Positions 22,923 to 35,740 of a stretch of 36,425 nucleotides of DNA are shown in pieces. The stretch is taken from contig JAHRFU010000124.1 in assembly GCA_019084485.1 (NCBI GenBank), forward strand, positions 92,706 to 129,130, in the 5' to 3' direction. The notes under the pieces were generated by a model, which did no database searches, had not been told where the DNA came from, and saw only the letters and a list, made by a program, of their open reading frames with translations. Source of the stretch: Desulforudis sp. (GTDB lineage: Bacteria > Bacillota > Desulfotomaculia > Desulfotomaculales > Desulforudaceae). How positions within the stretch are numbered: position 1 is the stretch's first letter; the number at the start of each line of letters is the position of its first letter. The position numbers were made by a program, and so were the translations under genes.

Positions 22923-23783
22923 CTACTGTGCGTTGGGGTAAAAAAGCTGCTCACCGTTTAGTTGGAAACCGGCAATCACTTCTTGACCTTCGTCGCTGAT
23001 GAAGTATTCTATCAAGGCTGTAGCGCCTTCAAAATCAATGTTCGGATGCTGATCCGGATTCGGAGCCATAATCCCGTACTGGTTGAACAGGGCCTGGTCA
23101 CCCTCGACAATCGCTTCCAGGTTCAAGCTATCCCGGAGGGCAATGAAAGTACCCCGGTCGGTCAGGGTGTATCCCTTCTGTTCCGAAGTCATACGCAGGA
23201 CGTCTCCCATGCCCTGCCCCACGGACTGGTACCAGTTTCCCTTTGGCTCGATCTCAGCCTTCTTCCAAATCGACTTCTCCTTGGAATGGGTGCCGGAGTC
23301 ATCGCCACGAGACACGAAGATGGCCTGTTTTTCCGCGATCAGCGCGAAGGCGGCGGCGGCATCCTTTCCGCCTTTAATCCCAACCGGGTCGTCCGCCGGG
23401 CCAACAATGACGAAGTCGTTGTACATTACGTCGTGCCGATCCACGAAGAACCCTTCCTGCACCATTTGCAGTTCCGTAGCTTTGGCGTGCACCAATACCA
23501 CATCGGCATCGCCGCGCTTTCCGGCTTCAAGGGCCGCACCGGTACCCATGGAGATCACGGAAACCTTGTAGTTGAACTTCGCTTCAAATGCCGGCAGGAA
23601 CACATCCAACAGTCCACTGTCGTGAGTACTGGTAGTAGTTGCCAATTTAAGCTCGGTGGGTGCCGGTTTCTGCTCCTCAGGCGGGGTACCGGTACCGGTG
23701 TTGCTCTGCCCGCAGGCGGCGGCGAAAACGGCAAGCACCAGCAGGACGGCCAGGAAAACAATAAACTGTGCTTTTAGTTTCAT
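22923..23783 (-). CDS. tupA: Tungstate-binding lipoprotein
   Basis: Lipobox LAVFAAACGQ; TTSTHDSGLLDVFLPAFEAKFNYKVSVISMGTGAALEAGKRGDADVVLVHA; start set to ATG 23783 after AGGAGG. Confidence 0.93.
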   Translation of the reverse strand: MKLKAQFIVFLAVLLVLAVFAAACGQSNTGTGTPPEEQKPAPTELKLATTTSTHDSGLLDVFLPAFEAKFNYKVSVISMGTGAALEAGKRGDADVVLVHAKATELQMVQEGFFVDRHDVMYNDFVIVGPADDPVGIKGGKDAAAAFALIAEKQAIFVSRGDDSGTHSKEKSIWKKAEIEPKGNWYQSVGQGMGDVLRMTSEQKGYTLTDRGTFIALRDSLNLEAIVEGDQALFNQYGIMAPNPDQHPNIDFEGATALIEYFISDEGQEVIAGFQLNGEQLFYPNAQ

Positions 23784-23891
23784 TGAGCAAATCCTCCTCA
23801 TATGGTGTGTAGTACACATTCATCCGGTTAAGTGGTCAGTAAAGAGCAGTTAAGCTTCCCGCTTACCCCATTTCCGCCCCAAAATCATGAC

Positions 23892-23918: not shown

Positions 23919-23929
23919 AATCATGGTCC

Positions 23930-24022
23930 GGATGACGGCTCCTTTCCGCAATGGGAGGCACGTCCGTTTCCAAGCGTACCCTACCGGCCCTGTAACCTTG
24001 GGATTTAAAACCTGTAGGTCAT
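23930..24022 (-). promoter_or_regulatory. Moco/Tuco-type riboswitch (proximal copy) upstream of tupA
   Basis: Minus strand ...GTAGGGTACGCTTGGAAACGGACGTGCCTCCCATTGCGGAAAGGAGCC; matches Moco RNA core (E. coli moaA leader GCCUCCCGUAUCUGGAAAGG). Confidence 0.8.
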
Positions 24023-24058
24023 AGGGCTCGGAGCTACCATATGCCATTGGCCAAATAA

Positions 24059-24090: not shown

Positions 24091-24113
24091 ATCAGTGCCT
24101 TACGAGCACAACA

Positions 24114-24205
24114 AACCGCATTCTCTCCTTTCCGCAACGGGAGGCGCGTTCGTTTCCAAGCGCACCCTGTCGATCAGCCGCCATAATCCTGATGATCACA
24201 GGCGG
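24114..24205 (-). promoter_or_regulatory. Moco/Tuco-type riboswitch (distal copy) upstream of tupA
   Basis: Minus strand CGCCTGTGATCATCAGGATTATGGCGGCTGATCGACAGGGTGCGCTTGGAAACGAACGCGCCTCCCGTTGCGGAAAGGAGAG. Confidence 0.82.
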
Positions 24206-24394
24206 TCAGATTCGGAGATACTGGGGTGACATATTCGCCCCTAAATAACCCGATTCCTGCCGAATTTCCATAAGGTTTCTAATTTTTTCGAAAGCCGATG
24301 TTCTTTGTTGGCAAATCATTTTCACTTTGTTCACAGTTTCGTCACAACAAATGTTCATACTAGAAGACAAGAACATAAGAGAAGGAGGTCAATC

Positions 24395-32920: not shown

Positions 32921-33073
32921 ATGGAACAGGGGAGGAAATCCATCCGAGGTATTATACCCGCAAGGGAAAGGGGATCCTCCCCTGTTTTTTTCGCCACCCC
33001 GCAGGCTGACGGCACCCTTTACGTGGACCTCAAAAAGGACAGCCTGGACTATGTACAACGGATCGAGGACTAA
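32921..33073 (+). CDS. 50-aa small ORF (below track cutoff), unknown
   Basis: MEQGRKSIRGIIPARERGSSPVFFATPQADGTLYVDLKKDSLDYVQRIED*; RBS TGGAGGAAA upstream; overlaps pheA stop tail-to-tail. Confidence 0.45.
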   Translation: MEQGRKSIRGIIPARERGSSPVFFATPQADGTLYVDLKKDSLDYVQRIED

Positions 33074-34200
33074 GTATCGGCCTGCTGATTCACCTGCAGC
33101 CGCACGTAGTAGGGCAGCAGGATCGCGTATACCTGCATGACCAGTTGCGGATCCAGGTCTCTGCGTTCCGCCAGCCGCTTCAGACGCTCCATGATCTCCG
33201 CCTCCCGCTTCGGATCCCGCACCGCGGCCCCGGCCTTGAGTGCCCCAATCTGCCGCACCAGAGCCGCCCTTTTGGCCATCAGTTCCACCAACAAATCGTC
33301 CAGTAGGTCGATATCCCGGCGCACGTCGCTGATACCCGCGACCCGGCTACCCTCTTCCGTGTCCCCTGCTGAACCGCTGTCAGCCGGATAAGAACCGAGT
33401 ACGCGGATAAAACCGCAGTGGGCAATCAGCCCGGCTAAGGCCTCCTGCACCTCCGGTTGATCCACGCTGCCGATCAGGTCAACGAAGAAGATGTAGCGTC
33501 CCAGGCGGGTTCTGGCCGGCCGCGACTCGATCCGGCTCAGGCTGATCCCCCGGCGGGCAAACTCACCAAGCATCAGGTACAGTGACCCCGGATGGTCGCT
33601 CCCGGACAACACCAAAGAAGTCTTCTCCGGCCTCCCCGTGCGGCATCCCTTGGCTCCCAACACCAAAAACCGGGTCTCATTGCTGCGGAGATCGGCGATA
33701 TCGCGACCCAGCACCTTAAGCCCATAAATCTCCGCCGCCAGTTCCGTACCGATCGCCGCCATCCCCGGTTCAGAATCAGCCACGATCCGGGCCGCGTCCG
33801 CCGTGCTGACCACTTCTCGGAAGGCCGCCCCCCGATAGCCTTCGGCCAGGTAAGCCCGGCACTGCGCCAACGCCTGCGGGTGAGACACAACGGTGTGCAC
33901 CTCTCCCGCCTCAGTCTCCGGACGGGCCAGCAGGTGATGCCGAATCGGCAGAACCAACTCCGCGCATATCTCCAGGCCATCGCTGTGGAAAGCGAGAAGG
34001 TCGAGGGTAAGCGCCACCGACCCCTCACCGGAGTTCTCCACCGGCAGCACCCCCCGGTCCAAACGTCCGTCTTGGATCGCCTGCACCACGTCTACCAGGG
34101 ATTCCAGCGGAACCAGGCGTGCTTCATCGGCCCTCGCCAGGCGCCGCGCGGCCTGTTCCGAAAATGTGCCTTTGGGTCCCAGATACCCGATCCGCATCAT
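33070..34200 (-). CDS. pheA: Prephenate dehydratase with ACT domain and C-terminal chorismate mutase domain
   Basis: MRIGYLGPKGTFSEQAARRL; DHPGSLYLMLGEFARRGISLSRIESRPARTRLGRYIFFVDLIG (ACT); DIDLLDDLLVELMAKRAALVRQIGALKAG (CM); start re-assigned to 34200. Confidence 0.92.
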   Translation of the reverse strand: MMRIGYLGPKGTFSEQAARRLARADEARLVPLESLVDVVQAIQDGRLDRGVLPVENSGEGSVALTLDLLAFHSDGLEICAELVLPIRHHLLARPETEAGEVHTVVSHPQALAQCRAYLAEGYRGAAFREVVSTADAARIVADSEPGMAAIGTELAAEIYGLKVLGRDIADLRSNETRFLVLGAKGCRTGRPEKTSLVLSGSDHPGSLYLMLGEFARRGISLSRIESRPARTRLGRYIFFVDLIGSVDQPEVQEALAGLIAHCGFIRVLGSYPADSGSAGDTEEGSRVAGISDVRRDIDLLDDLLVELMAKRAALVRQIGALKAGAAVRDPKREAEIMERLKRLAERRDLDPQLVMQVYAILLPYYVRLQVNQQADT

Positions 34201-34249
34201 CTTCCATCCTCTCTCTCTCTCTCCCTCTTCCCAGTTTACCGCGTAGCGC

Positions 34250-35260
34250 CTATTCCCTTCCCATCGCGCGGGAAATGACCTCCAGCCCACTCATCAAATC
34301 AGCGAAGGCTTCCGGAGTCAGTGACTGCTTTCCGTCACACAGCGCCTCGGACGGACATGGATGCACCTCCACGATAATCCCATCCGCTCCGGCGGCCACT
34401 GCGGCCCGCGACATCGGGGCGATCAGCCGCGGATCACCGGTGGCGTGGCTGGGATCGACGATCACCGGCAGGTGGCTGAGGCTCTTAACCAATGGAACCG
34501 CGCTCAGGTCCAGCGTGTTCCGCGTCATTTGCTCAAAGGTGCGGATGCCACGTTCGCACAGAACGACGTTACCGTTTCCTTCGGACATTATGTACTCGGC
34601 GGCCATCAGCCATTCCTCAATCGTGGACGACATTCCCCGTTTCAAAAGCACCGGTTTCGTGGTCTGACCAACCGCCCGGAGCAAGTCGAAGTTCTGCATG
34701 TTCCGGGAGCCGATCTGGAGCATGTCAACGTACTGGGCGGCGATCTCTAGGCTGGAGGCGTTAATCACCTCCGTCACGGTCGCCAAACCATAGGTGCGAC
34801 CGGCTTCCGCCAGCAGGGCGACCCCTTCTTCTTCCATTCCCTGGAAACTGTAGGGCGAAGTGCGCGGTTTGAAGGCACCCCCACGCAGGATGCGCGCCCC
34901 GCTCCTCGCCACCGACTCCGCCGCCGCCATCATCTGGGGCCGGCTCTCCACCGCACAGGGACCGGCGATCACGGTCGTTCTCCCCCCGCCGAGGACCGCG
35001 TCTCCCACCTGTACAACGGTATCATCAGCCTGTACGGCACGGCTGGCCAGTTTGTATGGAACCGATACGTCTACCACCCGTTCAACGCCCGGGCACCCGT
35101 TTAGGTTCAGATCTGCGAGCGCCACGCTACCGGCAGACCGGATCACAATCGGCCCGGAAGCCCCAGAGCGATGCAGTCGAAACCCGTGGCGCTCCAGCAT
35201 GGAACTGACTTCGGCCACCTGCTTGTTGGAAGCACCTCTTGCCATCACAACGACCACCAC
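34250..35260 (-). CDS. aroF: 3-deoxy-7-phosphoheptulonate synthase, type I-beta with N-terminal ferredoxin-like domain
   Basis: VVVMARGASNKQVAEVSSMLERHGF; VIAGPCAVESRPQM; LRGGAFKPRTSPYSFQG; VIVDPSHATGDPRLIAPMSRAAVAAGADGIIVEVHP. Confidence 0.95.
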   Translation of the reverse strand: MVVVVMARGASNKQVAEVSSMLERHGFRLHRSGASGPIVIRSAGSVALADLNLNGCPGVERVVDVSVPYKLASRAVQADDTVVQVGDAVLGGGRTTVIAGPCAVESRPQMMAAAESVARSGARILRGGAFKPRTSPYSFQGMEEEGVALLAEAGRTYGLATVTEVINASSLEIAAQYVDMLQIGSRNMQNFDLLRAVGQTTKPVLLKRGMSSTIEEWLMAAEYIMSEGNGNVVLCERGIRTFEQMTRNTLDLSAVPLVKSLSHLPVIVDPSHATGDPRLIAPMSRAAVAAGADGIIVEVHPCPSEALCDGKQSLTPEAFADLMSGLEVISRAMGRE

Positions 35261-35294
35261 AAACCCCTCCTGCTGCTTGGTTTAAATATAGAAA

Positions 35295-35333
35295 AGCCCG
35301 GACTCCCCCCATACTTGGGACGAAGTCCGGGCT
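35295..35333 (-). terminator. T-box terminator 2 (proximal to aroF)
   Basis: Minus strand AGCCCGGACTTCGTCCCAAGTATGGGGGGAGTCCGGGCTTTTC. Confidence 0.88.
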
Positions 35334-35405
35334 CCGCGTTACCACCCAAATTGGCCCTTGTAAGGGCCCAACTCTGCCGGGTACGGGAACACCAATCCCT
35401 CCAAA
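35334..35405 (-). promoter_or_regulatory. Second T-box module (stem III + antiterminator only)
   Basis: Minus strand CCCGTACCCGGCAGAGTTGGGCCCTTACAAGGGCCAATTTGGGTGGTAACGCGG. Confidence 0.8.
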
Positions 35406-35412
35406 CAAAAAA

Positions 35413-35438
35413 CCCTTCGCCCTTAGAGGGACGAAAGG
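35413..35438 (-). terminator. T-box terminator 1
   Basis: Minus strand CCTTTCGTCCCTCTAAGGGCGAAGGGTTTTTTG. Confidence 0.85.
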
Positions 35439-35695
35439 CATTGCTTCCGCGGTACCACCCTGATTGGCCGTATGAAACGACCCACTCGGCGAAGGGTACG
35501 GGATGATCTCCGATACCCCTCCCTGCTAACGGCGGGAGATTCCGGCACGGCCTACACAGCGCGGGGCGCTTTCAGCCAGCGACTCCGGGGAGAACTTCAA
35601 TCCGTCCGCACTTGGAAACGCTCTCAGTCGGTGGCGCTTCCTCCCTGGAAAGCCGGTCACGGTCTACTTTTCCCCTTCACAGTCTTTAACCTTTT
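35439..35695 (-). promoter_or_regulatory. Full T-box leader (stem I through antiterminator) upstream of aroF-pheA
   Basis: Minus strand GGGTGGTACCGCGG T-box motif at 35447-35460; stem I region with ACTGAGAGCG...TTGAAGTTCTCCCCGGAGTCGCTGGCTGAAAGC. Confidence 0.88.
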
Positions 35696-35710
35696 GTAGC
35701 TATATCAGGA

Positions 35711-35740
35711 ATTGTACCAGAGGGGACAACCCGTTGTCAA
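35711..35740 (-). promoter_or_regulatory. Sigma-A-type promoter for the T-box/aroF transcript
   Basis: TTGACA (35740-35735) - 18 nt - TACAAT (35716-35711) on the minus strand. Confidence 0.75.

Follow-up and report, generated by a model that had tools for sequence, protein, structure and literature searches.

The regulated operon and its leader

The window, that is, the whole stretch of DNA that was analysed (36,425 nt of a Desulforudis sp. contig), carries on its minus strand the genes aroF and pheA preceded by a leader, whose features are as follows, in the order of transcription and in window positions:

35711..35740, minus: promoter-like site TTGACA-18-TACAAT, with 11/12 matches and an extended -10 TG, with no other found for this leader
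35583..35689, minus: stem I of the Phe T-box, with AG box GGGGAAAAGUA, apical GACUGAGAGCG and specifier loop UUGAAGUUCU (RF00230 alignment)
about 35595-35593, minus: specifier UUC (Phe), in the specifier loop (RF00230 alignment; the genome has a tRNA-Phe(GAA))
35549..35577, minus: stem II region (RF00230 alignment)
35519..35545, minus: stem IIA/B pseudoknot, CGG/CCG(UUA) plus CUCCC/GGGAG (RF00230 alignment, sequence)
35509..35518, minus: HA, GGGUAUCGGA, the 5' strand of the linker directly 3' of the pseudoknot (sequence; kept in 135/142 double leaders)
35508-35504, minus: loop GAUCA of the HA:H1 hairpin (sequence)
35494..35503, minus: H1, UCCCGUACCC, local hairpin partner of HA, just ahead of stem III-1 (sequence)
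35464..35487, minus: stem III-1, purine string GAGUG ... AA (sequence; motif definition from PMC7583486)
35428..35460, minus: antiterminator 1, GGG-UGGUACC-GCG...CGU-CCC (RF00230 alignment)
35407..35439, minus: terminator 1 with its U run (sequence)
35389..35395, minus: H2 extension UUGGUGU, a candidate toehold predicted to pair with the HA:H1 loop with one bulged G (duplex predictions; moderate in the window)
35379..35388, minus: H2, again UCCCGUACCC, second partner for HA, just ahead of stem III-2 (sequence)
35351..35374, minus: stem III-2, purines GAGUU(G) ... AA (RF00230 partial match, sequence)
35317..35347, minus: antiterminator 2, GGG-UGGUAAC-GCGGAG...CUUCGU-CCC (RF00230 partial match, sequence)
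35292..35333, minus: terminator 2, AGCCCGGACU ... AGUCCGGGCU UUUU (fold z -3.5, sequence)
34250..35260, minus: aroF, DAHP synthase (DAHP_snth_FXD plus DAHP_synth_1), the first regulated gene (domain matches)
33070..34290, minus: pheA-like gene, a fusion of prephenate dehydratase, ACT and chorismate mutase (domain matches)

The initial annotation had placed here a full minus-strand T-box followed by a second stem III/antiterminator/terminator, and had proposed a search with a T-box model. That search confirmed the layout: RF00230 calls a full T-box at 35689-35424 (minus strand; module 1) with 98.5 bits, against a gathering score of 93, and on the downstream unit (about 35423-35313, minus strand; module 2) it matches the 3' half of the model only, with 31.4 bits, below the gathering score, and an E-value of 1.5e-5 in a 274-base search. 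The downstream unit is a stem III plus an antiterminator, without stem I. It had also been claimed that the second unit has no room for a stem I, and indeed only about 32 nt separate terminator 1 from stem III-2, which leaves no space for a second one. When the module 2 region was scanned alone for a second stem I with a specifier, no RF00230 stem I match was found, and no second promoter was found between the modules, the sole promoter-like site being located upstream of stem I. Regarding the previously noted alignment of the two copies, the repeat itself is real, but the segment that begins with CCCGTACCC is more than a featureless linker, since it constitutes the 3' strand of a helix (H1 in the first copy and H2 in the second one). 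The fold of unit 2 is far more stable than its shuffles (-57.8 kcal/mol, z -3.5), and terminator 2 consists of a perfect 10-bp stem plus UUUU, after which come a Shine-Dalgarno-like AGGAGGGG and aroF.

Module 1 thus contains a stem I with AG box, apical loops and specifier loop, and both modules contain an RRRxG...AA plus UGGN discriminator and a competing terminator; the second antiterminator/terminator lies in the same transcript without a second stem I, and the second stem I with a specifier that is proper to fully tandem T-boxes is absent from this leader. Judging by these elements, the leader is a partially tandem T-box for Phe that acts at the level of transcription, its two discriminators being arranged in series, each of them with its own terminator. 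In the PheA-like protein (33070-34290, minus strand), the chorismate mutase is C-terminal, which is the reverse of the domain order in E. coli.

Distribution and gene context

A pair of T-box cores separated by 108-153 nt precedes aroF in approximately 20 of the 80 named aroF relatives, which are mostly of the Desulfotomaculum, Pelotomaculum, Desulfallas, Thermincola and Syntrophomonas types, and the element is matched in 8/8 genomes of the window's own family. The strict double-core pattern is present in 71 of the 113 genomes of the class and in 49/399 genomes sampled over the phylum, whereas the reversed pattern, used as a control, is matched nowhere in the class and twice among the genomes sampled over the phylum. 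Because so many related genomes have the double core and the reversed pattern has essentially none, the arrangement is not due to chance. In total, 142 distinct double leaders were collected, all of them selected by means of a strict T-box core pattern. Their specifiers are mostly for Phe (UUC in at least 116 of 142), and the genes behind them, named by eye from the translations, comprise aroF, sodium:solute symporters, phenylacetate-CoA ligases, ABC substrate-binding proteins and a few trpD, trpE and serC. The RF00230 matches, the domains encoded by the downstream genes and the conservation of the layout support the initial proposal of one stem I with two antiterminator/terminator decisions ahead of aroF-pheA.

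Partially tandem Phe T-boxes located ahead of symporters, phenylacetate-CoA ligases and ABC substrate-binding proteins (L096, L113, L135, L171, L180, L214 and others) suggest a Phe regulon that includes the uptake and activation of aromatic acids.

Module 2 was also considered as a decayed relic, an idea that was rejected because the double layout and the UGGN are conserved across many genomes. A related view would reduce module 2 to an additional terminator that limits leakage independently of tRNA, with the antiterminator left as a remnant. The window would lend itself to it, as the bulge of its module 2 reads AAC and not ACC, the purine string GAGUUG is less regular and the terminator is very stable. 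Nonetheless, module 2 has retained UGGN, A1/A2 and stem III in many genomes, the operon would be shut off by a strong terminator acting constitutively, and the bulge TAAC is not a defect, since it is the commonest one in module 1 itself (75/142), all of which makes this view very improbable.

Matching of both modules to the same tRNA

As initially noted, both bulges in the window are UGGU and fit an ACCA end, and the tRNA-Phe(GAA) of the genome does end in ACCA. The variable base of UGGN is equal in modules 1 and 2 in 140/142 leaders (135 with U/U, and 5 with C/C in Trp and Ser leaders), and the agreement extends to 15/15 newly found leaders. The tRNA-Trp of the window's genome ends in GCCA, which fits UGGC, and the discriminator base of tRNA-Ser is G. 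Furthermore, the closing AA of the stem III purine motif is retained in module 2 of 134 of the 142 leaders. The sole two leaders with UGGA or UGGG in module 2 and UGGU in module 1 are L131 and L132, from the same genus, in which the second module may be in decay or may read a different tRNA.

The choice between the same tRNA and a sensor of the acceptor end only had been left open. The agreement of UGGN in the 140 leaders favours the same tRNA species for both modules, which are probably served through the shared stem I by a strand exchange in the linker, although this agreement could be explained in part by inheritance from the duplication. The other option would be an autonomous discriminator 2, binding without stem I the acceptor end of any fitting free uncharged tRNA and acting as a generic second sensor of charging; in this sense, module 2 has all the parts of a discriminator (stem III motif, UGGU, A1/A2), and such a unit has been described as sufficient for sensing aminoacylation (PMC7583486). 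That the UGGN of module 2 tracks that of module 1 also in Ser and Trp leaders speaks against this autonomy, though duplication fits too. Moreover, a contact restricted to the antiterminator amounts to four base pairs, common to most A73 tRNAs, and would destroy the Phe specificity. An autonomous second sensor is hence regarded as unlikely, also in view of the linker strands considered below.

Strands of the linker

The window contains two copies of the same strand, since H2 is a second copy of H1. Among the 142 double leaders, HA was found in 135. Of these 135, 127 have an H1-like strand and 120 an H2-like one, with a match to no fewer than 6 of the 8 consensus bases required, versus 8.7% of shuffled linkers. 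The median spacing between H1 and the purine string of stem III-1 is 6 nt, and between H2 and the purine string of stem III-2 it is 5 nt. As a consequence of this nearly equal spacing, HA:H1 and HA:H2 would set both discriminators equally far from the pseudoknot.

The HA:H1 hairpin is absent from the readable T-boxes for other amino acids in the window's genome (L001-L003, L005 and L007), and several single-discriminator T-boxes ahead of aroF do have this hairpin. One family of Ser T-boxes ahead of serC (L163, L164 and L165) has two UGGC discriminators without an HA helix, so the HA device is not common to every partially tandem T-box. These leaders, which could then be a different solution or an independent duplication, count in favour of an autonomous second sensor.

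Two further variations of the linker were observed. In L086, a single-discriminator T-box ahead of aroF, two successive linker hairpins lie between the pseudoknot and stem III (GGUAUAAG...CCGUACC, and then GGUAUCGG...CCGUACUC). In L009 and L012, long insertions place a repeated CAGTTGGCAGTTAATAGTCGG-like or GGCCAGTTGCCAGCAGTC-like sequence in the HA:H1 loop and in linker 2, possibly a small repeat element.

Complementarity between HA and H2

The main comparison, between own and swapped partners, involves the HA:H1 hairpin loop, which H2 would not have to match if it were just a copy of H1. In register, over positions x4-x9 beyond the core, 3.61/6 are paired between HA and the H2 of the same leader versus 2.93 when H2 is swapped (z 7.2, 0/20000 permutations, 116 leaders). 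Sliding the register makes z drop from 7.0 to between -0.5 and 3.1, the peak being at the predicted register, and restricting the in-register test by identity gives z values of 4.0 (61 leaders below 80%), 3.0 (24 below 70%) and 2.0 (only 10 below 65%). With bulges allowed, the duplex energy of HA plus loop is -16.4 kcal/mol with the own linker 2 and -13.3 kcal/mol with swapped ones (z -17.4, n=133), the diverged subsets giving z values of -12.1 (n=69) and -7.8 (n=30, below 70% identity). The loop alone with the H2 extension is likewise distinguished from swapped pairs (z -13.8, -10.3 and -7.4, the last for 23 diverged leaders) and from dinucleotide shuffles (z -7.4). These duplex tests were run on windows excluding H1, which avoids the pairing between H1 and anti-H1, and all these z values overstate the independent support, given that the leaders share ancestry and their effective number is below 133. 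In a scan of the leader with the same own-versus-swapped test, covering downstream windows up to +48, the signal appears solely in windows over H2. A bias in GC content was rejected as its cause, because z is about 0 when windows elsewhere in these leaders are used and the effect is kept against shuffles.

The leaders that were found after the idea had been formed, and thus held out, agree in the full test (z -4.4, 0/20000, n=14) and in the loop-only test (z -2.05, 524/20000, n=13). At the level of single positions, changes on both sides are found at x2-x8, in 22-39 leaders per position. The longest contiguous pairings beyond the core comprise 10 (L146 and L169) and 9 (L144 and L212) positions; L229-L237 have HA GGAUA with H2 UAUCC, and in the trpE leader L238, GGCUGUUG..GAAUCU pairs with AGAUUC..AACAGCC. 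When folds from HA through the linker of module 2 are forced, HA:H2 beats HA:H1 in 87% of 117 leaders, by a median of 5.4 kcal/mol. Complementarity is also seen between the stretch preceding H2 and H1 with its tail, which implies that the whole hairpin of linker 1 could be opened by linker 2 in many leaders. The predicted HA/H2 pairing is accordingly well supported comparatively: as far as pairing can be judged from aligned leaders, HA is complementary to H1 and, in a leader-specific manner, to its own H2, whose extension also fits the HA:H1 loop, and this holds for the set of about 130 leaders.

This complementarity might also be a mere by-product, in case module 2 is a copy starting inside the linker hairpin, with H2 resembling H1 through duplication or gene conversion and each discriminator having a local hairpin of its own, with no exchange. 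The near identity of the H1 and H2 cores would follow from such an origin; an HA-like strand of some kind is located before H2 in 24/135 leaders, and the complementarity of H1 and its tail to the stretch before H2 is what two inverted-repeat copies would be expected to show. In L089, the nearest relative, a GGGGUAGG strand just ahead of H2 could form a local hairpin instead. A copy of H1, however, cannot explain why H2 matches the unpaired loop of HA:H1, as seen in the x4-x9 and loop-only tests, and in most leaders H2 has no local partner strand. An origin as by-product is for these reasons rather unlikely, and an autonomous second sensor would, for its part, leave the specific complementarity between HA and H2 purposeless.

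In the window itself the evidence for HA:H2 is moderate. Its forced fold slightly favours HA:H1 (-76.3 kcal/mol, versus -73.3 kcal/mol for HA:H2), the predicted pairing of the loop with H2 is weak (-2.8 kcal/mol, with one bulged G), and in the loop/H2 test its own H2 ranks only within the best 16% of foreign ones.

Proposed mechanism

Taken as a whole, the data are best explained by a shared stem I that serves two discriminators through the exchange of HA from H1 to H2, a reading to which we give a probability of about 0.6. In T-boxes, the tRNA is captured by stem I and has its 3' end examined by the discriminator, the antiterminator being stabilised when the tRNA is uncharged (PMC7583486). 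In the leader of the window, tRNA-Phe would be captured by the unit of stem I, stem II and the pseudoknot. With the RNA polymerase at terminator 1, HA:H1 would keep discriminator 1 beside the pseudoknot, where the bound tRNA would be tested. After read-through, the H2 extension would bind the loop of HA:H1 as a toehold and displace H1, so that HA:H2 would loop out module 1 as a side arm and discriminator 2 would take the same place relative to stem I. The tRNA, either the same molecule or a second one on the same stem I, would then be tested again at terminator 2. Two serial checks of this kind would cut leakage and make aroF-pheA respond more sharply to Phe starvation. The more specific proposal, namely that the linker is a strand-exchange switch with the HA:H1 loop as toehold and that one arm for tRNA recognition is reused for two successive charging tests, is given even odds, and it is from pairing and geometry that we infer a handover of the tRNA between the discriminators.

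Relation to known systems

T-boxes with duplicated terminator-antiterminator elements are reportedly described in the abstract of Vitreschak et al. 2008. Partially tandem T-boxes have the same layout as the window, with one stem I with its specifier and two antiterminator/terminator units in series. They are named as a class, with their mode of action given as unknown, in a review (PMC7583486); as such a class had already been described, the T-box of the window as stated is a member of it. The apparently new part is the linker helix with exchangeable partners (HA with H1 or H2), of which no description was found in the papers that were searched.

Canonical class I transcriptional T-boxes (RF00230) share stem I, stem II, stem IIA/B, stem III, antiterminator and terminator with module 1, but have one discriminator and not two. 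Fully tandem T-boxes, such as those ahead of aroF in L008 and L009 (cores 345-350 nt apart), resemble the window in taking two decisions in series; unlike it, each of their units has its own stem I and linker hairpin, neither of which is present in module 2. Tandem riboswitches with two expression platforms, e.g., tandem TPP (PMC9481103), also take serial decisions on one ligand, from which a sharper response is expected, although each unit has its own ligand-recognition domain, whereas the leader of the window shares one stem I.

The complementarity between HA and H2, being specific to each leader, gives a concrete mechanism for partially tandem T-boxes, testable by a few point mutations. If it holds, they would represent an RNA device found in nature, whose two output platforms reuse a single ligand-recognition domain via a co-transcriptional, toehold-mediated strand exchange, and this would explain the persistence of the layout, mostly on Phe genes, in a whole bacterial class.

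Elsewhere in the window, two aptamers of the Moco/tungsten-cofactor riboswitch (RF01055, 67.7 and 65.2 bits) lie in tandem at 23923-24045 and 24109-24229 (minus strand), ahead of what appears, by translation, to be a tungstate ABC transporter (binding protein at 22923-23819, followed by permease and ATPase).
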